From positions 1-44,509 of the IMG/VR virus record IMGVR_UViG_3300044704_000019: a DNA stretch of 44,509 bases. The stretch is one strand, 5' to 3'. Of the stretch, positions 58 to 44,495 are shown one piece after another. The notes beneath the pieces were generated by a model that saw only the letters and a program-made list of their open reading frames with translations, had not been told where the DNA came from and did no database searches. A program made the translations under genes and the position numbers. Origin of the DNA: a virus. Every line of letters starts with the position of its first letter. Position 1 is the first letter of the stretch.

Positions 58-492
58 ATGCCTTGGTGGTCCGACTACCCAGTTCTTTCGGTTCGCAAGA
101 ACGGTGATCGCATGATCGGGACCAACGACGTGTACTCGCGCGACTCATATGCGATGGGGATTCCGACTATGAACGGTCTGGCCGCCAACCAGCCAGTCTC
201 GGAGCGGATAGCGCACGTTCGGATCGGTGATGTGCTTCGAGTCGAGCGCGACGAGAAGGGCTGGGTACTGCTGGACAACGCTGGCGTTCTTGGTCGGCTG
301 CGCTGGCGCCTCAGCGACGACGCGCGCGTGCACCCTGTGAACGGGAGCGCCATCCGGTTGCCGTCCGCGGGCCTGCTGTACGTAGAACGCATCGTGGTCA
401 ACCCTGCCGGCGAAGTGAAGGACGTCTCGGGATACGTGACCGCAAGGCGATCTAGCGCGCCAGCCCTTCCCCCCGACCTACCTCACCGATAG
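58..492 (+). CDS. Hypothetical protein, plus-strand, left end
   Basis: Encodes 144 aa of unknown function. The ATG follows a G-rich stretch (GTAGGGGGGCTTCGTC) that could act as a ribosome binding site. The middle (about residues 50-90) alternates basic and hydrophobic residues and is followed by a likely beta strand (LLYVERIVV), suggesting a small beta-rich domain, but I recognise no family. Its 3' end overlaps the 3' end of the convergent HTH gene by about 40 bases. Third-position GC looks lower than in the late genes, which would fit a recently acquired gene. The reading frame is open and has normal protein composition, but the call rests on that alone. Confidence 0.5.
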   Translation: MPWWSDYPVLSVRKNGDRMIGTNDVYSRDSYAMGIPTMNGLAANQPVSERIAHVRIGDVLRVERDEKGWVLLDNAGVLGRLRWRLSDDARVHPVNGSAIRLPSAGLLYVERIVVNPAGEVKDVSGYVTARRSSAPALPPDLPHR

Positions 493-670
493 GTCCTGCT
501 GCAGGGATCTGGCGCAGGAGCCCCTCGACCTCGGCCTCGTCGATCCTGATCAGCCTCCCGGGCTCGAGCCGGTACGCCGTGAGGTGGCCGTCGGACACCC
601 TCCTTCGCACGGTCCTCTTGGTGACGCCCAACAGCGCAGCCGTCTCAGCCAGCGTTAACCACTTCTTCAC
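452..670 (-). CDS. Excisionase/MerR-like helix-turn-helix protein
   Basis: A 72-aa DNA-binding protein of the excisionase/AlpA-like HTH_17 type. The N-terminus (KKWLTLAETAALLGVTKRTV) is the typical helix-turn-helix with the LGVTKRTVRR recognition segment, followed by a wing (GHLTAYRLEPGRLIRI) and a short helix. The GTG at 670 is preferred over one at 679 because GAAGGAG lies 8 bases upstream of it. Such proteins act as recombination directionality factors for tyrosine integrases or as small transcription regulators. Two integrases lie more than 25 kb away, or close by if the element is circular. Two palindromes lie just upstream. Whether it is Xis or a regulator cannot be decided here. Confidence 0.8.
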   Translation of the reverse strand: MKKWLTLAETAALLGVTKRTVRRRVSDGHLTAYRLEPGRLIRIDEAEVEGLLRQIPAAGPIGEVGRGEGLAR

Positions 671-718
671 GCGACACACTCCTTCAGACCCCCTTCCGGC
701 GCTGTCACCGGCGGGTCT

Positions 719-825: not shown

Positions 826-1095
826 TCAGTAGCCGTGGCTCTTGAGCTCGGCGTCCAGAGCGCGCGCGACCAGCCGCCCTTGGGGGATAAGGGTGCCGTC
901 CATGCATGCCTGAAGCCGGTCGTAGAGCTCCTCCGGGATGCGGACGGCGATCTGCTTCCCGCGACGCTTGATGGGCGCGGGGGAGCGGGCCGACTGTTGC
1001 GTGAAGGGCACCCCGTTGTCGGGCGCCGGCGTCACCTGCGGCAGGGGCGGCGTCTTCATGGTGGCCTTGGGCAACCGGGTGGCGGGCTTGGCCAT
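826..1095 (-). CDS. Ribbon-helix-helix protein, probable partition partner of ParA
   Basis: 89 aa. The first ~45 residues are a flexible, Pro/Lys-rich basic tail; residues 47-86 fit a ribbon-helix-helix fold: beta strand KQIAVRI, helix PEELYDRLQACMD, turn, helix PQGRLVARALDAEL. Its ATG overlaps the parA stop (ATGA), so the two are translationally coupled. Small RHH proteins with unstructured basic N-termini (ParG, Omega, TubR-like logic) are the centromere-binding partners of Walker-type ParAs in type Ib partition systems; they bind short tandem repeats upstream of the operon and repress it. The 11-bp CTAG repeats upstream of parA are the obvious target. Family and pairing are inferred from fold and position. 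Confidence 0.75.
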   Translation of the reverse strand: MAKPATRLPKATMKTPPLPQVTPAPDNGVPFTQQSARSPAPIKRRGKQIAVRIPEELYDRLQACMDGTLIPQGRLVARALDAELKSHGY

Positions 1096-1940
1096 CAGGA
1101 GACCTCCATCGTGGTGTGGATGCCGGCGGCCTGGAGCACGTAGCTGGCTAGTCGACCGTAGATGTCGCCGACCTCGCGGCCGGAACCCCCGAAGGCGCGG
1201 ATGGGTGCATGCGCACCCTCGGCCTGGTGCACAACTGCTCGCCTAGGTACTGCCTCGAGCAGCTGGTTCCCGTAGGACTCGCGCAGGTAGGCCAAGAGCA
1301 CGGCGTGGCGGGCCTCCCTGGCAACGCTGGTGGGCAGTACGCCGAGCAGCGCCGGTGAGCACCCGCCGCGGGCGTCGCGGACCTGGGCGAGGACCTCCAG
1401 GGTGCGGGGCATGCCTTCCATCGCGTTGTCGGCCGGCTCGGTGACCAGCAGGACGGCATCAGCAGCGTGCATTGCGGCCAGGAACAGGCCGCCCAAGCTG
1501 GGTCCGCAGTCGAGCACCACCAGGTCCACCTCGGCCGTTGGGTCGGCGAGTCCGAGCGCCAGCCTGTGCTCGGAGCCTCGGAAGGATTCGCCGTTGCGGG
1601 CGGCCAGGTCCTGGTTGGCCGGCGCGACCTGCATCCGCGGCGACCAGTGTTCTCCGGCGGGCACTGCGACCTGGAACAGCGTGCCGCCCTGGGTCGCCGC
1701 CCCTTCGCGTTCCTGGGCTGCATGCAGTGCGTCACTGACAGTGAGGGCTTGAGGCTTACCGAAGGCGTTGCCCTCGTACAGACGGGGTTGGGCGTCGGTG
1801 AGCGCCGTGGCGTTGCCCTGCGGATCCAGGTCGACCAGGAGGACGCGGGCTCCGCGCTCTGCGGCGGCGTCGGCGAGGTTGGCGGCGGTCGTGGTCTTGG
1901 CCACGCCACCCTTCTGGTTGGCGACCGCGAGCGTGTACAT
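1095..1940 (-). CDS. parA: ParA-family partition ATPase
   Basis: 281-aa ParA/MinD-type P-loop ATPase. The deviant Walker A motif KGGVAKTT (residues 10-17) has the signature lysine; DLDPQGN (37-43) is the A' motif and VVLDCGPSLG (about 141-150) is the Walker B region. ParA proteins move low-copy plasmids or chromosomes over the nucleoid by ATP-dependent binding and release, working with a centromere-binding protein. Start ATG has GGAG 5 bases upstream. It forms an operon with the RHH gene, and its 80-bp upstream region is filled with 11-bp CTAG repeats. No N-terminal HTH extension is visible, as in type Ib ParAs. Presence of parA suggests extrachromosomal maintenance. Confidence 0.93.
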   Translation of the reverse strand: MYTLAVANQKGGVAKTTTAANLADAAAERGARVLLVDLDPQGNATALTDAQPRLYEGNAFGKPQALTVSDALHAAQEREGAATQGGTLFQVAVPAGEHWSPRMQVAPANQDLAARNGESFRGSEHRLALGLADPTAEVDLVVLDCGPSLGGLFLAAMHAADAVLLVTEPADNAMEGMPRTLEVLAQVRDARGGCSPALLGVLPTSVAREARHAVLLAYLRESYGNQLLEAVPRRAVVHQAEGAHAPIRAFGGSGREVGDIYGRLASYVLQAAGIHTTMEVS

Positions 1941-1959
1941 GAGGCTCCTGGGACTTGAC

Positions 1960-2013
1960 GGCTAGGCAACGGCTAGCCAGTGTCTAGCACGGGCTAGCCA
2001 ACTATTAGTCGCA
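1960..2013. repeat. CTAG iteron array 1, upstream of parA
   Basis: Four clear units and one degenerate unit with CTAG (or TTAG) cores at 1962, 1973, 1984, 1994 and 2005, spaced 11, 11, 10 and 11 bp. Units read GGCTAGGCAAC, GGCTAGCCAGT, GTCTAGCACGG, GGCTAGCCAAC, TATTAGTCGCA. One unit per helical turn puts all cores on the same DNA face. Directly upstream of a ParA/RHH operon, this is the expected layout of a combined centromere and operator. Three related arrays lie elsewhere in the window. Confidence 0.8.
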
Positions 2014-2021
2014 CGACACGC

Positions 2022-2291
2022 TCAGGAGTGATGGACCGCGGTGCGGCGGCGCGACGTCATCGACCGCTGGCGCCGAGCGGGTGGCGGACGCCACCCGCGA
2101 GCCATCTCCAGCCAGCCAGGCGGGTGGCTGCGAACCCAGACGAGCACGGCGTACTGCCACGTCTGGTCGGGATGGAAGTGGGCTTGGCGCCAGTAGTCCG
2201 CCTCTCGGCTGTGCCACTGGGAGTAGCGGAAGCAAAGAATCGACAGGCCGGAGCCGAGCACGATCCCGATCTCCGTCAGCGTCGCGATCAC
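2022..2291 (-). CDS. Small membrane-anchored protein, paralogue A
   Basis: 89 aa. Residues 2-21 (IATLTEIGIVLGSGLSILCF) form a probable N-terminal membrane segment followed by a soluble Trp-rich part. It is clearly related to the protein at 4445-4708: both have a membrane helix, then a W-H-x-x-EA-x-(Y/F)-W segment, then WV(R/K)(S/T)HPP and a second Trp-Arg-Pro region near the C-terminus. GTG start overlaps the stop of the gene upstream (GTGA). Function unknown; small inner-membrane proteins in this position could be exclusion or signalling factors, but nothing in the sequence shows it. Confidence 0.65.
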   Translation of the reverse strand: MIATLTEIGIVLGSGLSILCFRYSQWHSREADYWRQAHFHPDQTWQYAVLVWVRSHPPGWLEMARGWRPPPARRQRSMTSRRRTAVHHS

Positions 2292-2635
2292 GTGTCCCCC
2301 GGCTCACGCACGAGCAGCAACCGCCCGTTGCCCAGCAGCTCGGCCTGGTACCGGCCGGGCGCGGGTTTCGGGGTGTGCGTCACTGCGGCGTTCAGGGGGC
2401 AGTTGCGCAAGCCCTTAAGACGGCAGGAGGCGGTGTGCTCGAGGATCCATCCGCCTAGGGAGACGTCGAGGATGTGCTCACCTTCGGGCACCACCACCAG
2501 GCCGGACCGCTCGAGGGCCTTCAGGACGCCCTCTGCCATCGCGCGCGACGCACGGAGCCGCTCAACTGGCAGACCGACCCCGTGTGGGCTGTAGCTGAGC
2601 GCGTCCGCGATGACGCTCAGCGCGGTCGCCGTCAT
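2288..2635 (-). CDS. Conserved phage-type hypothetical protein with probable winged-helix N-terminus
   Basis: 115 aa. Residues 5-50 resemble a winged helix (helices around VIADALSYSP, RLRASRAMAEGVLKALERSG, then a strand LVVVPEG). The rest carries a GWILEH...CRLKG...CPLN pattern and a C-terminal LLGNGRLLLV strand, which I associate with small proteins common in actinobacterial phages and mobile elements; I cannot name the family with certainty. The ATG at 2635 lies only 2 bp from iteron array 2 and has no Shine-Dalgarno sequence, so the transcript may be leaderless or the start may lie further in. The array would then act as an operator over this gene. Confidence 0.6.
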   Translation of the reverse strand: MTATALSVIADALSYSPHGVGLPVERLRASRAMAEGVLKALERSGLVVVPEGEHILDVSLGGWILEHTASCRLKGLRNCPLNAAVTHTPKPAPGRYQAELLGNGRLLLVREPGDT

Positions 2636-7854: not shown

Positions 7855-8408
7855 GACGCCAATTCCTCGGGTGCCAGGTGATCGAGCAGGGTGGCGTCAC
7901 CCTTGCCGGCCGAGCTCTTCCGGACCCGGATGCGTCGCGGGGGAGCGGGCGGTGCCGGGACCGGCCGGGTTGGCCGGGCAGGGACCTTGAGCCAGAAGCG
8001 GGCGATCGCGCCGGAGGGGTGTCGGACGTAGAAGTCCTCCTTGATCCGGCCCTCGTCGACGTGGGTGCGCACGTAGACGTGGGTCACGTTCCAGGCGGCC
8101 GCGATCTCGTACACCGTGATCAGTTTGACCCCCGATGGCGGGATCGGTGGCAGCTTCGGCCGCGGGGTCCGTTTCGCCGGCTTCCGCCTGGCCTTCGCCG
8201 CGGCGCCGGCCACCTTGGGAACCTTGAGCCTGGCAGCGGCCTTCGCCGGGCCGGGCGTCGTCTTGGGCTTGGCTGCCGCGCCGGCCACCTTGAGCCTGGC
8301 GATCGCCTTCGCCGGGCCAGGCTTCGACCTAGGCCTGGCCTTGGTAGGCATGGGCTTGGTCGCCTTGGCCGTGTCCGGGCTGGCCGTGCTGGTCTTGGGC
8401 TTGGTCAT
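7851..8408 (-). CDS. Histone-H1-like tail fused to a DNA-binding-type domain
   Basis: 185 aa. Residues 1-90 are Lys/Ala/Pro-rich with imperfect repeats of PGPAKA(I/A)ARLKV and AGAAAK, like histone-H1 or HU-type basic tails of actinobacteria. Residues 92-145 (KLITVYEIAAAWNVTHVYVR, THVDEGRIKEDFYVRHPSG) look like a helix-turn-helix plus wing. The C-terminus is again Pro/Arg-rich. It probably binds DNA non-specifically through the tail and specifically through the HTH; a nucleoid-associated or silencing role is inference. ATG at 8408 overlaps the upstream stop. Confidence 0.65.
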   Translation of the reverse strand: MTKPKTSTASPDTAKATKPMPTKARPRSKPGPAKAIARLKVAGAAAKPKTTPGPAKAAARLKVPKVAGAAAKARRKPAKRTPRPKLPPIPPSGVKLITVYEIAAAWNVTHVYVRTHVDEGRIKEDFYVRHPSGAIARFWLKVPARPTRPVPAPPAPPRRIRVRKSSAGKGDATLLDHLAPEELAS

Positions 8409-9379
8409 ACCGGCGGATCCGGTTGGCTCAGCTGCTGGGTCTCGACGTCCATCAGGTCTCCCTCGCTTTCAGGATGATCTACGGCTCCGACAGCGGACTC
8501 ACCGCCGGCGGATGACGAACCGGGCGGAGGCCGGCCCTCGTCGTCATGGCCGGGCGCGGAGCGCCCTTCGCTTGAGGTTTTGCGCTTGGCTGCCGCGCGA
8601 GCAGCGATCTCGTCAGCGATGGCCCTGGCAGTCGGGAGGTTCCGGTGGTTGACCTCCAGTCGCTGATCGGGCGGGGTGGCGTTGCGCATGAAGTCCGCCA
8701 CGCGTGTCAGCCCCTGGGCCTTGGCGGCGGCCTGGCGTAGCGCCCGGGGGTTGGTCCCGCACGCTCGACACGAGGCGCAGGGCTTGCCGCGGATGGCTGC
8801 CGTGGGGCACGTGGTCGCGCCGGCGGAGCCGGGGGAGGGGTTTGCAGTCGGGCGAAGCCCGGCCGCTTGGCCTGAGGGTCCCTGGCCCGGAACGGGTAAG
8901 GGCAGATGGTCTCGGAAAGACTGGGGCGCGCGCGCGTATGGGGGGGTCAATCCTGACGACTCTGAGTTGTCAGGGAGACCACTCTGAGTGGTCTCACACG
9001 AGGTCCGCACGGCGCCGCCAACGACAACCTGGTCGGCCATCTCTGCGGCTCGCTCGGCGTACGCCTCCAGCTCGCAACCGACCGGGGTCAGGACGAGCTT
9101 GTAGGCCGTGTGAGCCCGTCCCAGGCCCGATGCCACCACGAGCACCAAGCCGGTCTCCGCAAGCTCTCTGCGGGCGCGGCAGATCGACGACTCGCTCCAG
9201 CCGGTCTCGCTCATCAGGTAGCGGTCGCGGACGACGCCGAAGTTGAGGTCACCCGACTCGTCGTCCTTGCAGCAGGCCAGGAGGACTTCGTAGACGTCGC
9301 GGGCCTTCTTGGTCAGGCCTCGCGCCGCCGGCCGGTTCAGGTAGTAGCGGATCCGCGGCCGCCGCATAGGGCGGATCAT
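8405..9379 (-). CDS. Winged-helix protein, candidate replication initiator
   Basis: 324 aa from ATG 9379 (overlaps upstream stop, ATGA); the frame extends further upstream but only as a shadow of the next gene. Residues ~8-100 form a winged-helix domain (LTKKARDVYEVLLACCKD, MSETGWSESSICRARRELAE, TGLVLVV). A low-complexity linker follows, then CASCRACGTNPRALRQ, a Cys cluster, and a helical C-terminus. The domain order resembles phage and plasmid replication organisers and HTH proteins of actinophages. Given parA nearby and no other replication gene in the window, it is the best Rep candidate, but this is unproven. Confidence 0.6.
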   Translation of the reverse strand: MIRPMRRPRIRYYLNRPAARGLTKKARDVYEVLLACCKDDESGDLNFGVVRDRYLMSETGWSESSICRARRELAETGLVLVVASGLGRAHTAYKLVLTPVGCELEAYAERAAEMADQVVVGGAVRTSCETTQSGLPDNSESSGLTPPYARAPQSFRDHLPLPVPGQGPSGQAAGLRPTANPSPGSAGATTCPTAAIRGKPCASCRACGTNPRALRQAAAKAQGLTRVADFMRNATPPDQRLEVNHRNLPTARAIADEIAARAAAKRKTSSEGRSAPGHDDEGRPPPGSSSAGGESAVGAVDHPESEGDLMDVETQQLSQPDPPV

Positions 9380-9663
9380 CGGGGCACCGCGATCACGTAG
9401 CGGCTGCGGCGGTGGCCGGTGCCGGGGACAACCTCGACGAGCCCGCGGGCGCGTAGCTCGCGGCGTGCAGCCTTGAGGTGCGTGCTGCTGTAGCCGGCGC
9501 GTTCGGACAGCTGCTCGTCGCTCACTTTCACCTGGAGAATGCCGTCCCGGGAGGCGCACAGTTCCAGGAGCGTCCGGTAGACCTCGCGGACGTGCCGGGG
9601 GAGGTCTTTCACTCCCGGACGGGCTAGGAAGCGGTCCACCGCTGAGGCCCTCACGTGAGGCAC
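9376..9663 (-). CDS. Small winged-helix protein, paralogue of its neighbour
   Basis: 95 aa. The body (LPRHVREVYRTLLELCASRD, LSERAGYSSTHLKAARRELR, ARGLVEVVPGTGHRRSRYVI) aligns throughout with residues 8-110 of the adjacent 324-aa protein, so the two arose by tandem duplication. It consists of the winged helix alone and may regulate or compete with the larger protein. GTG 9663 is taken because GAGG lies just upstream; GTG 9654 is also possible. It is divergent from the gene at 9687, with a short inverted repeat between them. Confidence 0.65.
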   Translation of the reverse strand: MPHVRASAVDRFLARPGVKDLPRHVREVYRTLLELCASRDGILQVKVSDEQLSERAGYSSTHLKAARRELRARGLVEVVPGTGHRRSRYVIAVPR

Positions 9664-9679
9664 CGAACCTCGGTACGGT
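9662..9679. promoter_or_regulatory. Inverted repeat and -10-like element between divergent genes
   Basis: ACCGA and TCGGT (9662-9674) form an inverted repeat with a 3-nt centre, overlapping TACGGT (9674-9679), which matches the TAnnnT pattern of actinobacterial -10 elements. The ATG at 9687 lies 8 bases beyond, compatible with a leaderless transcript. The inverted repeat could bind one of the winged-helix proteins. No clear -35 is visible. Confidence 0.3.
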
Positions 9680-9686
9680 GCCGCCC

Positions 9687-9938
9687 ATGGAATCGCTCTT
9701 GGACGACGGCATGGGCATCTATGCCTCCGGCGCAGACGCTCTCCTCGCGGCCTGGGACGGCAGCCTTGACCGGGTGGGCCGCCGGATCGCGGAGAGTGGC
9801 AACAGCGAGTACCTCGCGCCTGGACTGGCCATGCTCGCCGCGAACCTTCTCAGTCGGTTCGGCATCACGCGCGACCAGCTGGTCACCGAGCTCAACCTCA
9901 TCGCGGCCGAAGAGGACGCCTACCAAGACCAGCCCTAG
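9687..9938 (+). CDS. Small helical protein on the opposite strand
   Basis: 83 aa, MESLLDDGMGIYASGADALL onward, mostly alpha-helical and acidic. Codon third positions are about 86% GC, above first positions, as in a true high-GC gene. There is no Shine-Dalgarno site, but TAnnnT lies 8 bases upstream, so it may be leaderless. It is the only plus-strand gene in this part. A competing minus-strand frame (9651-9977) covers the same DNA and has 4-base overlaps at both ends, so the call is not secure. Function unknown. Confidence 0.5.
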   Translation: MESLLDDGMGIYASGADALLAAWDGSLDRVGRRIAESGNSEYLAPGLAMLAANLLSRFGITRDQLVTELNLIAAEEDAYQDQP

Positions 9939-15358: not shown

Positions 15359-15880
15359 ATGGCCAGAGGTGGCCCCCGCAACCGTTCCGGCCCGCCGGCC
15401 GACCCGAACTCGGGCCGTTCGGACGACCGGGGCCTGGCCCTGACGGCCCTCCCGTCGAAGGGGCACCGCGGCCGCGCACCGGCCTTCCCGCTGCCGGACT
15501 GCGAGGTCACCGTCGACGGCGGTGAGGCCTCCGACTTCAAGGTCGTCGACGACGAGCGAACCGCCCGCGAGCTCGTGGTGTGGCGCGAGGTGTGGAAGAC
15601 CCCACAGGCCCACGCCTGGGCGCTGGAGTCCTGGCGCTGGCGCACCGTGGCGCTGTACGTGCGCTACTCGGTGCGGATGGAGGCCGGCGACTGCCCATCC
15701 TCAGTCGCCTCGCAGGTGATCCGGCTCGCCGACCAGATCGGCCTCACCCCGGCCGGGCTGCGCGAGAACGGCTGGACGATCACCTCCACCAGCACGGCCA
15801 AGCCCAAGACGGCGGCGGTGTTCGCCTCGGTCGACGACCCGCGCGACCGCTTCGAGGTCCTGGCAGATGGCGGCGGCTGA
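15359..15880 (+). CDS. terS: Terminase small subunit
   Basis: 173 aa. Begins MARGGPRNRSGPPADPNSGR, the usual start of actinophage small terminases, followed by a region with a helical core (ELVVWREVWKTPQAHAWALE, WRWRTVALYVRYSVRMEAGD) and RLADQIGLTPAGLRENGWTI. It recognises the packaging site and recruits the large subunit. AGGAG lies about 10 bases upstream. Its end overlaps the terL start by 14 bases. Confidence 0.88.
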   Translation: MARGGPRNRSGPPADPNSGRSDDRGLALTALPSKGHRGRAPAFPLPDCEVTVDGGEASDFKVVDDERTARELVVWREVWKTPQAHAWALESWRWRTVALYVRYSVRMEAGDCPSSVASQVIRLADQIGLTPAGLRENGWTITSTSTAKPKTAAVFASVDDPRDRFEVLADGGG

Positions 15881-16916
15881 GCCGCGCTACACCGCCCCGA
15901 CCTGGCCCACCCTGTGGATCGTGGTCGCCTGGATGGAGCGGCACTGCGTCGTCCCGGACGGGTTCCGGAAGGGCCAGCCATTCCGGCTGTACGACTGGCA
16001 GACCTGGTGCACCCTCAACCACTACCGGATCCGCGACGGCATCCGGCAGAACCCCGACCCGGACAACCCGCTGCGGGCCGGCGCGTTCTTCTACCGCCGC
16101 TCCCAGGTCGTCGCGCCGCAGAAGACCGGCAAGGGCCCGTGGAGCGCCGGGATCGTGGCCTGCGAGGCCGTCGGCCCGGTGCTGTTCCTGGACTGGGCCC
16201 GCGGCGGCGAGGTCTACCGCTGCGAGGAGCACGGCTGCCCCTGCGGCTGGACCTACACCTACCGCCCCGGCGAGCCGATGGGCCGGCCCTGGCCGTCACC
16301 GCTGATCCAGCTGATGGCGTCCTCCGAGGACCAGGTCGCGAACGTCTACCGGCCGCTGCAGGCGATGATCCGCGGCGGCTGCCTCGGCGAGCAGATGATG
16401 ATCCGGGAGGGCTTCATCCGGCTCCCCAACGACGGCCGGATCGACGTCGTCACGTCCTCGGCGATGAGCCGGCTCGGGAACCCGACCACCTACGCCCAGC
16501 AGGACGAGACCGGCCTGTACACCAAGTCCAACAAGCTGCAGGACGTCGCGGACGTCCAACGCCGGTCGCTGGCCGGGATGAGCGGCCGGGCCCTGGAGAC
16601 CACGAACTGCTGGAACCCCGCCGACGCCTCCACCGCCCAGCAGACGTACGAGTCCCGCAGCACCGACCTGTTCCGGTTCTACCGCAAGCCCCCCGAACAC
16701 CTGTCCTACACCAACAAGGCCGAGCGCCGGCGGATCCACCGCTTCAACTACGCCGACAGCCCGCACGTCGACCTGGACAGCATCGAGGGCGAAGCAGCCG
16801 AGCTGCTCGAGCGCGACCCACAACAGGCCGAACGGTTCTTCGGCAACCGGATCGTCTACGGCGCCGGGTCGTGGCTACCCGACCAGCTGTGGGAGACCAG
16901 CAGGGCGGCCGCATGA
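15867..16916 (+). CDS. terL: Terminase large subunit, ATPase part
   Basis: 349 aa. Contains the packaging ATPase: VVAPQKTGKGPWSAG is the Walker A-like motif (around residue 87-101) and YAQQDETGLY the Walker B/acidic motif. It also has a zinc-like insertion (YRCEEHGCPCGW). It powers DNA translocation into proheads. The ORF stops at the linker before the nuclease domain, which is encoded by the next ORF (ATGA overlap). Together the two make ~543 aa, the size of single-chain homologues, so this is a split terminase. Confidence 0.9.
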   Translation: MAAAEPRYTAPTWPTLWIVVAWMERHCVVPDGFRKGQPFRLYDWQTWCTLNHYRIRDGIRQNPDPDNPLRAGAFFYRRSQVVAPQKTGKGPWSAGIVACEAVGPVLFLDWARGGEVYRCEEHGCPCGWTYTYRPGEPMGRPWPSPLIQLMASSEDQVANVYRPLQAMIRGGCLGEQMMIREGFIRLPNDGRIDVVTSSAMSRLGNPTTYAQQDETGLYTKSNKLQDVADVQRRSLAGMSGRALETTNCWNPADASTAQQTYESRSTDLFRFYRKPPEHLSYTNKAERRRIHRFNYADSPHVDLDSIEGEAAELLERDPQQAERFFGNRIVYGAGSWLPDQLWETSRAAA

Positions 16917-17497
16917 TCGACGTCTGCCTGGGCTTCGACGGCAGCGACTGGGACGACTGGACCGCGATCCGGGCCGAGACCCTGTCCGGCTGGCAGTTCA
17001 CCCCGACCTACGGCCCCGACCAGCGCCCGACGATCTGGAACCCGACCGAGTGGGGCGGGAAGATCCCGCGGCTGGAGGTCCGGGCAGCCGTCGCGGAGCT
17101 GTTCAGCACCCTGCGGGTCGCCCGGATGTACGCCGACCCGCCGTACTGGTCCACCGAGATCGACGAGTGGGCGCTGGAGTACGGCGACCAGCGGGTCGCC
17201 CGCTGGGCGACCTACCGCCTCGTGCAGATGCACTCGGCCCTCGAGCGGTTCGTCACCGACCTCGGCAGCGGCGCCCTGACCCACGACGACTGCCCGATCA
17301 CCACCCAGCACGTCGCGCACGCCCGCAAGCTCGCCGCGAAGGGCTCCGCGGAGCGCTACTACCTCGGCAAGCCCTCCCAGGCCCAGAAGATCGACGCCGC
17401 GGTCACCTCCGTCATCTGCCACGAGGCCGCCGCGGACGCCCGCGCCGCCGGCTGGGCACCGCCACCGCCCCCGCCCCGAATGATCGTGATGCGCTGA
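16913..17497 (+). CDS. Terminase large subunit, nuclease part (separate ORF)
   Basis: 194 aa, ATG 16913 overlapping the ATPase stop (ATGA). MIDVCLGFDGSDWDDWTAIR holds the first catalytic acidic motif of the RNase H-like nuclease; VARMYADPPYWSTEIDEWAL the second; QAQKIDAAVTSVICHEAAAD the third. All expected acidic residues are present. It cuts concatemeric DNA at packaging start and end. The ends of the two ORFs fall exactly in the interdomain linker, so the split may be functional. Confidence 0.88.
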   Translation: MIDVCLGFDGSDWDDWTAIRAETLSGWQFTPTYGPDQRPTIWNPTEWGGKIPRLEVRAAVAELFSTLRVARMYADPPYWSTEIDEWALEYGDQRVARWATYRLVQMHSALERFVTDLGSGALTHDDCPITTQHVAHARKLAAKGSAERYYLGKPSQAQKIDAAVTSVICHEAAADARAAGWAPPPPPPRMIVMR

Positions 17498-28123: not shown

Positions 28124-28138
28124 TTGGAGGTGGCGGCC

Positions 28139-29086
28139 ATGCCGTCGCACGCTATCGCCCCGTCCCCGGTCTCCGTGGGAGACCTCACCGCACTCGCCCC
28201 CGCCGACCTGGCCGTCGCCGGGTTCCTGGCCCGCTACCGCGGCCGGACCCTGCAGCAGTACCGGGACGACCTGAAGCTCTACCTGTCCTGGTGCCTGGGG
28301 CTGCAGCTGCCCCTGCTGACCGCGACCCGGCCGCACCTGGAGCTCTACCAGCGCTGGCTGGAGGTCCAGACCAGCCAGGCCGGCACCCGGTGGGCGGAGT
28401 CCACCATCAGCCGCCGGTTCGGGACCGTCGCCACGATGTACCACTACGCCCACCTCGACGGCCTGATCCCCGCCGACCCGGCCGTGCACGTCACCCGCCC
28501 GGTGGTGCACCTGGCGGCCCAACGCCGGCTGTTCTACACCCCGCTGGAGTACGCGCTGGTGCTCGAGGCGGCCCGCCGAGGCCGGCCCGGCGACCACGCC
28601 CTGATCGCGCTGCTCGGGATGCGCGCCCTGCGGATCGGGGAGACCTGCGCGCTGGACGTCGAGGACCTCACCACCCTGCGCGGCTACACCGCCGTCACGC
28701 TGACCCGCAAGGGCGGCATCGTCGTCACCCTGCCGCTGCCGATGCCCGTCACCCGGGCCGTCCTGGAGCATCTCGAGGGCCGCACCACCGGACCGCTGCT
28801 GCTGAACTGCCGCGGCCACCGGCTCGACCGGAACTCCGCCAGCCGCGCGATCGCGCGCTGCGCCGAGGCCGCCAAGATCGTCACCCCGATCAGCCCGCAC
28901 GGGCTGCGCCGGACCTGCCTCACCACCATGTTCACCCTCGGCATCCCGCTGCGGGACATCCAGCTCGCCGCCGGCCACGCCAGCCCCAAGACCACCGTCA
29001 TCTACGACATGGCCTCCACCAACCCCGACCGGGACGCCACCCACCGGCTGGCCTCCTACATGGCCGGCATCAGCGCCGGCGGCTAG
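28139..29086 (+). CDS. int: Tyrosine recombinase 1
   Basis: 315 aa from ATG 28139 (GGAGG 8 bases upstream). N-terminal SAM-like core-binding domain (RGRTLQQYRDDLKLYLSWCL, HLELYQRWLE), then the catalytic domain with R165 (ALRIGE), K191, H254 and R257 (HGLRR), H280 (GHAS) and nucleophile Y289 (IYDM). All expected residues are present. It is paralogous to the recombinase at 43116, with similar N-terminal motifs. Unusually it lies inside the late operon. It ends at a TAG inside CTAG array 3. It could integrate the phage or resolve plasmid multimers. Confidence 0.93.
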   Translation: MPSHAIAPSPVSVGDLTALAPADLAVAGFLARYRGRTLQQYRDDLKLYLSWCLGLQLPLLTATRPHLELYQRWLEVQTSQAGTRWAESTISRRFGTVATMYHYAHLDGLIPADPAVHVTRPVVHLAAQRRLFYTPLEYALVLEAARRGRPGDHALIALLGMRALRIGETCALDVEDLTTLRGYTAVTLTRKGGIVVTLPLPMPVTRAVLEHLEGRTTGPLLLNCRGHRLDRNSASRAIARCAEAAKIVTPISPHGLRRTCLTTMFTLGIPLRDIQLAAGHASPKTTVIYDMASTNPDRDATHRLASYMAGISAGG

Positions 29087-29113
29087 CCCAGCGCTAGCCC
29101 GCGGCTAGCACTA
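29081..29113. repeat. CTAG iteron array 3
   Basis: Units GGCTAGCCCAG (29081-29091), CGCTAGCCCGC (29092-29102) and GGCTAGCACTA (29103-29113), CTAG cores at 29083, 29094 and 29105, exact 11-bp spacing. The first unit supplies the TAG stop of recombinase 1. Same unit as arrays 1, 2 and 4. Confidence 0.75.
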
Positions 29114-29124
29114 CCAGGCACCTG

Positions 29125-29160
29125 CTGAGGGCCGATCACCACCCGGCGATCGGCCCTCAG
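29125..29160 (+). terminator. Long perfect hairpin after recombinase 1
   Basis: CTGAGGGCCGATC (29125-29137) and GATCGGCCCTCAG (29148-29160) form a perfect 13-bp stem with a 10-nt loop. No T-tract follows, as is common for actinobacterial terminators. It separates the recombinase/iteron insert from the tail genes and might equally be a recombination or protein-binding site. Confidence 0.6.
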
Positions 29161-29239
29161 CCATGTCTACCCACCCACATCCCACCCCGAGCGCAGCTCG
29201 GGGACCTCGGCACGCCCCAACCCGTCCAGGAGGACGTTC

Positions 29240-43115: not shown

Positions 43116-44009
43116 ATGACGGAGCTCGCGGTCGTGCACCACGGCGTCCTCGAACCGCACCAGCCTGCTGCCGGGCCCGGGCCGGCGTTCTACGCCCAGG
43201 CCTTCCTGGCCGGCTACAGCGGCCGGACCAGGGAGTCCTACGAGACGACCCTGCGGCAGTGGGGGACCTGGTGCCTCGAACACAGCGTCGAAGTGATGGC
43301 CGTGCAGCGCGCCCACGTCCAGGTCTACGCCCGCGACCTCGAGCAGGCCGGCCGAGCACCCGCGACCATCGCCCAGAAGCTGTCCGCCGTCGGCGGGCTG
43401 TACGCCTACCTCGTCATCGAAGGCGTCCTGCCCAAGAACCCGGTCCAGCACGTACGCCGGCCCAAGGTCAGCGACGAGAGCCCCCGCTTCGGCCTGGACA
43501 AGGCCGAGCTCCTGCAGCTGTTGGCGATCGCCAACACGCACAGCCCCGAGGCGCACTGCCTGATCTGCCTGCTCGCCCTCAACGGCCTGCGTGTCAGCGA
43601 GGTCTGCGGGGCCGGCGCCGACGACCTCGACGTCGAACTCGGCCACCAGGTCCTCGCCATCATCCGCAAGGGCGGCAAGAAGGCCCGGGTGCCGCTCGGT
43701 ACCCGCACCGCCCAGGCCGTCGCCGATCTAGGCCGAACGGCCGACGAGAGTCTCATCGGTTTGGACCGATACGCCGCCTGGCGCCTCGTACGGCAGCTCG
43801 TCGACGAGGCCGGCATCACCAAGCGGATCTCGCCCCACTCGCTCCGTCACACGTTCGTGACCCTCGCCCTCGAAGCCGGCGCCCCGTTGCACATCGTCCA
43901 AGAGGCCGCCGGCCACGCCGACCCCCGCACCACCCAGCGCTACAACCGCGGCCGCAAGCGCCTCGACAACCACGCCACCTTCGCCCTACAGACCTTCCTC
44001 GACCAGTAA
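43116..44009 (+). CDS. int: Tyrosine recombinase 2
   Basis: 297 aa from ATG 43116 (GGGAG upstream). Core-binding domain (YSGRTRESYETTLRQWGTWC, HVQVYARDLEQAGR) then catalytic residues R159 (GLRVSE), K185, H241 and R244 (HSLRHT), H267 (GHAD), Y276 (RYNR). XerC/D-like, complete. Both N-terminal regions (FLAGYSGRT..Y..L..W..WCLE) resemble recombinase 1. Likely phage integrase; the HTH gene at the left end would be its directionality factor if the element is circular. Confidence 0.93.
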   Translation: MTELAVVHHGVLEPHQPAAGPGPAFYAQAFLAGYSGRTRESYETTLRQWGTWCLEHSVEVMAVQRAHVQVYARDLEQAGRAPATIAQKLSAVGGLYAYLVIEGVLPKNPVQHVRRPKVSDESPRFGLDKAELLQLLAIANTHSPEAHCLICLLALNGLRVSEVCGAGADDLDVELGHQVLAIIRKGGKKARVPLGTRTAQAVADLGRTADESLIGLDRYAAWRLVRQLVDEAGITKRISPHSLRHTFVTLALEAGAPLHIVQEAAGHADPRTTQRYNRGRKRLDNHATFALQTFLDQ

Positions 44010-44149: not shown

Positions 44150-44479
44150 ATGAGACACATCGTGATCGGCTTGACTCTGCTTCTGGCGGCCGGTTGCGGT
44201 GGAGGCGACCCCCATGCCCAGGCTGCGTGCCGACATGTTCGAGAGGCTGCCGCGGTAGATGAGCGCACTGACTCAACGTCGCTCGGGGCGATGGTGGATG
44301 TGGCCAAGGCAGAGTTCGCCGCGATTGCAGAAGCCAAGAAGGCCGGGAATCCTGGCCTGAGGAAGGCCGGGGGGGCGACGGATCTCGGCAGCGGCTTGCC
44401 CCTGGACGATCCGCTGTACCGCAACCCCGCTGATGTTGCCTTCAACGCTGTGCTGGACTGGTGCCGTGCAAACGGCTAG
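44150..44479 (+). CDS. Putative exported lipoprotein
   Basis: 109 aa. MRHIVIGLTLLLAAGCGGGD: a basic start, hydrophobic core and lipobox-like AAGC with C16 as the lipidated residue, then a soluble helical region (SLGAMVDVAKAEFAAIAEAK) and two Cys (ACRHV, DWCRAN) that may pair. Independent of the recombinase (terminator between). Small prophage lipoproteins next to integrases often exclude superinfecting phages or alter the surface; that role is inferred. Its TAG stop lies in CTAG array 4. Confidence 0.7.
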   Translation: MRHIVIGLTLLLAAGCGGGDPHAQAACRHVREAAAVDERTDSTSLGAMVDVAKAEFAAIAEAKKAGNPGLRKAGGATDLGSGLPLDDPLYRNPADVAFNAVLDWCRANG

Positions 44480-44495
44480 CCACTGGCTAGCAGCA
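44474..44495. repeat. CTAG iteron array 4
   Basis: Units GGCTAGCCACT (44474-44484) and GGCTAGCAGCA (44485-44495), CTAG cores at 44476 and 44487, 11-bp spacing. The first unit supplies the TAG stop of the lipoprotein gene. It lies at the end of the window, so more units may lie beyond. Confidence 0.7.

Follow-up and report, generated by a model that had tools for sequence, protein, structure and literature searches.

A Probable RHH-Type Partition Locus of Plasmid Kind and a Dispersed Family of Palindromic Repeat Arrays in a Tailed Actinophage Contig

Overview

A well-supported partition locus of the plasmid kind, probably of the RHH type, is present in the window, that is, the whole of the 44,509-base linear virus record IMGVR_UViG_3300044704_000019 (GC approximately 69%). 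It consists of a ParA ATPase gene, a coupled gene for a small, probable RHH protein, and an array of palindromic repeats upstream of parA. Repeats of the same type form arrays elsewhere in the contig. This dispersed array family is unexpected, and its regulatory role is putative. The best reading, which is likely though not certain, is that a tailed actinophage carries a ParABS module of the RHH type (type Ib-like), which stems from actinobacterial plasmids and has dispersed parS-like sites. The partition genes and the four arrays suggest that the phage can persist as a low-copy plasmid, and its inheritance may be tied to the control of other genes.

The structural genes (terminase, portal, head maturation protease, scaffold, major head protein, tape measure, and endolysin) are those of a tailed actinophage. 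The portal protein shows 60% identity to that of Streptomyces phage Kromp and about 50% to those of Arthrobacter phages such as Seahorse. The contig has no end repeats, and no long open frame spans the joined ends to decide circularity.

ParA and Its Coupled Partner

The cassette and the gene adjoining it are as follows.

452–679, minus strand: MerR-type HTH/excisionase-family protein, 75 aa, adjoining the cassette (HTH_17, E 2.3e-11; TIGR01764, E 1.1e-13)
826–1095, minus strand: probable RHH centromere-binding protein/autorepressor (ParG/Omega-like), 89 aa, with weak RHH/Arc profiles, coupled to parA
1076–1107 (approximate bounds), minus strand: junction of the parA stop and the RHH start, TGATG-coupled, matched in plasmid pKRAD02 (see below)
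1095–1940, minus strand: ParA ATPase, 281 aa, without an N-terminal HTH domain (phrog_164, E 1.7e-43; AAA_31, E 4.8e-30; Walker motifs)

The N-terminus of ParA begins with MYTLAVANQKGGVAKTTTAANL, and the deviant Walker A motif that the initial annotation had pointed out is indeed present as KGGVAKTT from residue 10 onward. The 89-aa gene lies directly 3′ of parA with a 1-base overlap in TGATG, and its GC3 is 0.91. Both frames are open and codon-biased. The size and the coupling of the small gene are thus as first described, and its RHH identity comes from weak matches: RHH_3 with E 0.032, which is below Pfam’s cut-off, and the Arc-like phrog_3180 with E 0.0083. A single-sequence AlphaFold model of low confidence places helices at residues 55–66 and 71–86, after a basic tail. 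An hhalign comparison with a profile of seven plasmid ParA partners gave a probability of 61% (E 8e-5, counted for a single comparison). When the seven-partner plasmid profile was run on the 355 ORFs of the window, the 89-aa protein ranked first, with a non-significant E of 0.089. An RHH profile built from four partners (RedRock and three plasmids) did not single it out, and a PDB sequence search with this protein returned no match. Fold similarity to centromere binders had been proposed as a check; the poor single-sequence model found no match with Foldseek and offers nothing usable either way. Judged from these comparisons, the support is weak but consistent, and the RHH fold is probable.

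Plasmid Relatives of the Pair

ParA has its best matches on low-copy-type actinobacterial plasmids, at 33–36% identity. Matches in phages are fewer, all of them below 35%. In all 14 actinobacterial plasmids examined, a small gene comes right after parA; in two of these it is unannotated and was found by ORF inspection. Among the partners scanned, one matches Antitox_RHH (E 1.7e-05) and two match the centromere-binding ParB C-terminal domain. In the Prescottella plasmid pRSRe2287, the pair is annotated as parA-parG.

The Kineococcus plasmid pKRAD02 and plasmids of Rhodococcus, Prescottella, and Hoyosella encode ParA proteins 32–37% identical to that of the window in a multiple alignment, with similarly built partners. 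At the junction of the two genes, 27 of 28 nucleotides are the same in the window and pKRAD02 (one short match, picked by eye). The two ParA proteins themselves are far less alike, with 37% identity in the multiple alignment, and this contrast argues for a common descent of the gene pair. In pKRAD02, palindromic repeats precede parA and also follow the partner gene, although its palindrome is of the CATG type. Plasmids of the Kineococcus/Rhodococcus type differ from the window in being plasmids, not phages, and in a “recombinase family protein” gene, seen on the three plasmids checked. As a side observation, the CATG-type repeats of pKRAD02 (L272:8990–9110) flank the pair and are likely a parS pair, without annotation in its gene table.

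By sequence similarity, the ParA/RHH pair of the window is of the actinobacterial plasmid type. The initial annotation had described a complete type Ib-like cassette; the ParA, the array 5′ of parA, and the small partner found in 14 of 14 plasmids agree with this, and the RHH fold is the weakly backed part.

Four Arrays of One Palindromic Repeat

Each array is built from an 8-bp palindrome, GGCTAGCC, repeated with a pitch of 11 bp. The arrays and the ORFs touching them are listed below; the arrays have no strand.

1960–1999: array A1, four GGCTAGCC-type units spaced by 11/11/10 bp, 20 bp 5′ of parA
2288–2635, minus strand: 115-aa ORF, weakly matching DUF6085, with its start directly at array A2
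2638–2663: array A2, two perfect units and a partial one, immediately 5′ of ORF 2288–2635
29081–29110: array A3, three units pitched at 11 bp, with the TAG stop codon of int1 inside the first
44150–44479: small lipoprotein-like ORF with its TAG stop codon inside array A4
44474–44492: array A4, two units, near the right contig end and 465 bp downstream of int2

The layout of A1 is GGCTAGGC-AAC-GGCTAGCC-AGT-GTCTAGCA-CG-GGCTAGCC. Two units are perfect matches to the palindrome, one matches at 7/8 positions, and one at 6/8. The spacers between array units are not conserved, and no canonical promoter was found at A1. A helically phased repeat array 5′ of parA had been recognized from the beginning, and its four units bear this out. 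The name “iterons” given to them is loose, as the units look like operator or parS sites. A1 was the only one of the four arrays noticed at that time; A2, A3, and A4 were missed. Between A2 and A1 lie both ORF 2288–2635 and ORF 2022–2291. A3 is followed on its 3′ side by a hairpin (29124–29161) with 17-bp arms and then by tail genes.

Five pairs of GGCTAGCC units at 11 bp, both units with at least 7/8 matches to the palindrome, are observed against 0.005 expected from dinucleotide shuffles. When all 256 palindromic 8-mers were scanned without bias at seven spacings (8–14), this unit and spacing came out on top in the window, with four separate arrays, a number that no other reaches. None of 149 control sequences (other loci of at least 12 kb) exceeds three arrays, a number reached once; because the controls differ in length and kind, the scan serves as an empirical check and not as a p-value. 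The tetranucleotide CTAG is scarce in this genome: base composition predicts about 127 sites, 44 are present, and the four arrays account for 11 of these.

The exact pattern GGCTAGCCN3GGCTAGCC is seen in four IMG/VR contigs, none of them detectably related to the window. The array pattern has one match in 297 genomes, at a locus without a ParA or RHH gene, which is taken as chance. Queries with the RHH protein and int1 against viral contigs found no relatives. In 395 genomes of one class, the RHH query gave weak matches, and none of the 12 loci inspected has ParA alongside. Among 43 records of phage relatives collected by the portal protein, many of them fragments, none contains ParA. As these searches turned up no homologous phage sharing the arrays, co-occurrence lends no support to the pairing of the RHH protein with them.

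Comparison with Known Partition Systems

RedRock is an actinophage with a proven parABS (PMC7157519). This system, known also from other cluster A phages, resembles that of the window in belonging to a temperate actinophage and in pairing a ParA with an 89-aa ParB that has a weak RHH_1 match. Arrays of 8-bp units are located 5′ of parA and 3′ of parB in RedRock, and one of them begins at the parB stop codon, much as A3 and A4 each take in a stop codon. Unlike the window, RedRock has a ParA of 185 aa (against 281 aa here; 33% identity in the multiple alignment) and about 7–8 units per array on an 8-bp pitch (against 11 bp here). It also has no integrase, and an array among structural genes is not described in the available part of PMC7157519. 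The homologous short ParA and the 8-bp-pitch parS arrays that mark the cluster A type are therefore absent from the window.

On pSM19035, one dimer of the RHH protein Omega binds each repeat and two bind with high affinity, while full activation of ParA requires four contiguous repeats (PMC9499535). The delta-omega system is similar to the window in having an RHH-ParB and several parS sites overlapping promoters of more than one gene; it differs in that its six sites contain 7–10 contiguous non-palindromic heptads, in contrast to two to four palindromic units on an 11-bp pitch (PMC9499535). The Myxococcus plasmid pMF1 has a type Ib par and six dispersed sites of 8-bp near-palindromic iterons, but its par is a three-gene parCAB and it is a plasmid (PMC3235114). 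Besides the six sites on pMF1, the same paper mentions several dispersed centromere sites on N15, RK2, and pSM19035 (PMC3235114).

Proposed Function of the Locus

We infer that the RHH protein binds arrays A1–A4, with one dimer per 8-bp palindrome. The two-fold symmetry of the units fits a symmetric RHH dimer, and because of the 11-bp pitch the dimers would stack on one face of the DNA. At A1, the protein would repress parA and its own gene and also form a partition complex stimulating ParA. Nucleoid-bound ParA could then spread prophage copies to daughter cells, and the XerC-like recombinases may resolve multimers, as on low-copy plasmids.

A2, A3, and A4 could be additional parS/operator sites. 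A2 would probably serve to repress the short operon 5′ of parA, and A3 might tether or quiet the late region. Given the requirement for four contiguous repeats on pSM19035, the four-unit A1 is the likeliest functional centromere and operator. Each of A2–A4 has fewer units than that, which counts against the best reading, as do the lack of a canonical promoter at A1 and the presence of an Xis-like gene; with two to three units, they could bind the RHH protein and regulate, and might activate ParA poorly.

Plasmid or Integrated Prophage

The contig contains two tyrosine recombinase genes.

28124–29086, plus strand: int1, XerC/D-like tyrosine recombinase (phrog_1, E 4.7e-36; XerD model, E 2.9e-23, below cut-off; 41% to Seahorse gp38)
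43116–44009, plus strand: int2, XerC/D-like tyrosine recombinase (XerD model, E 6e-43, below cut-off; 41% to Seahorse gp38)

The gene int1, whose first ATG is at 28139, is located between head and tail genes; int2 is located after the lysis genes, and its product is 34% identical to that of int1. Seahorse, Constance, and Kiko each have a small XerC-like enzyme with which both proteins align (34–41%); with the other integrases of these phages they hardly align. The initial annotation took the presence of two tyrosine recombinases for an unusual set. This is wrong for the clade, as two are common in the related Arthrobacter and Gordonia phages (PMC9670964, PMC9584220). Relatives have an arm-domain integrase near their XerC-like one. 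What is unusual here is that both recombinases are of the small XerC-like class: no third tyrosine recombinase, arm-domain integrase, or serine recombinase domain was found in the contig, which may be incomplete.

Such an XerC-like-only set fits a replacement of integration by partition, as in the cluster A phages, where parABS takes the place of the integration cassette (PMC7157519). Low-copy plasmid maintenance had been regarded as implied by the cassette. That exceeds the evidence of a linear contig without end repeats, and plasmid maintenance of the prophage is better called plausible.

Alternatively, ParA and the RHH protein could partition the phage while it still integrates, through a XerC-like enzyme or a canonical integrase absent from an incomplete contig, the cassette being a relic or of transient use. 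This is conceivable but doubtful. The Xis-family gene, the contig ends, and the arm-domain integrase of the relatives are all in line with it, but no third recombinase was found, the parA and RHH frames are open and codon-biased, and the cluster A phages offer the precedent of parABS in place of integration. Early genes, the terminase region, and late genes follow one another without a break in the contig, an order that suits an integrated prophage as well as a plasmid.

Other Roles Considered for the Arrays

The arrays could instead be stoperator-like operators of another phage regulator, either the HTH protein at 452–679 or an unseen repressor, with ParA and the RHH protein forming a separate pair that has its own site elsewhere. 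Excisionase and BldC-type proteins bind direct repeats, the HTH_17/excise protein adjoins the cassette, and the arrays are spread over the genome, two of them at gene ends. This reading is nevertheless improbable: the four-unit A1 occupies the position expected for an autoregulating RHH-ParB, the perfect palindrome suits a symmetric dimer better than a directional HTH, and the par cassettes of RedRock and pKRAD02 are also accompanied by repeat arrays.

The position of A3 at the int1 stop codon and of A4 downstream of int2 would suit arrays that serve the XerC/D-like recombinases as recombination or accessory sites. This is very improbable: no recombinase adjoins A1 or A2 in the contig, the unit spacers differ whereas crossover cores must match, the 3-bp gaps between units do not suit 6–8-bp crossover regions, and no array is found in the stretches read (short in some) 3′ of the homologous genes in Seahorse, Constance, Kiko, G692, G674, and G680. 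This last point led us to set the idea aside. In the phage record G692 (L261, IMG/VR), the XerC-like gene is placed between the portal/protease genes and the tape measure gene. No array is seen in the stretch read around it, so an array need not accompany such a recombinase cassette.

Possible Phage-Wide Role and Significance

Within the favoured reading of a ParABS module, one might tentatively propose that the RHH protein doubles as a phage-wide regulator through the arrays at the par operon, the 5′ operon, and the recombinase/tail-gene boundary. Partition of the prophage would then be coupled to the control of late genes or XerC-like recombination, as an RHH counterpart of the dispersed centromeres of N15, in an actinophage that swapped integration for partition and Xer-type resolution. 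N15 differs from the window in its type Ia SopB and in being a linear plasmid with telomeres. Like the window with its putative sites, this plasmid-prophage is a phage with several dispersed ParB sites (cited in PMC3235114).

A few groups of actinophages are already known to have RHH-type parABS, and dispersed RHH sites are known from plasmids. A phage combining dispersed sites, one of them inside the structural gene block, with a plasmid-type ParA that the 43 portal-protein relatives (many of them fragments) do not show, and with two XerC-like recombinases where no arm-domain integrase was found, would serve well as a model for the shift from integration to plasmid life. It would also test whether partition proteins double as lysogeny regulators, and the GGCTAGCC-N3 array provides a concrete DNA target for testing.

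Other Genes of the Contig

ORF 58–492 has no phage match. The frame at 8405–9718, which includes an HTH region, may encode a replication initiator (phrog_270, E 0.0019), and its true start is probably internal. The gene for the terminase large subunit (15867–17497) seems to be split into an ATPase frame (15867–16916) and a nuclease part in another frame; that of Arthrobacter phage Seahorse is annotated as split likewise.
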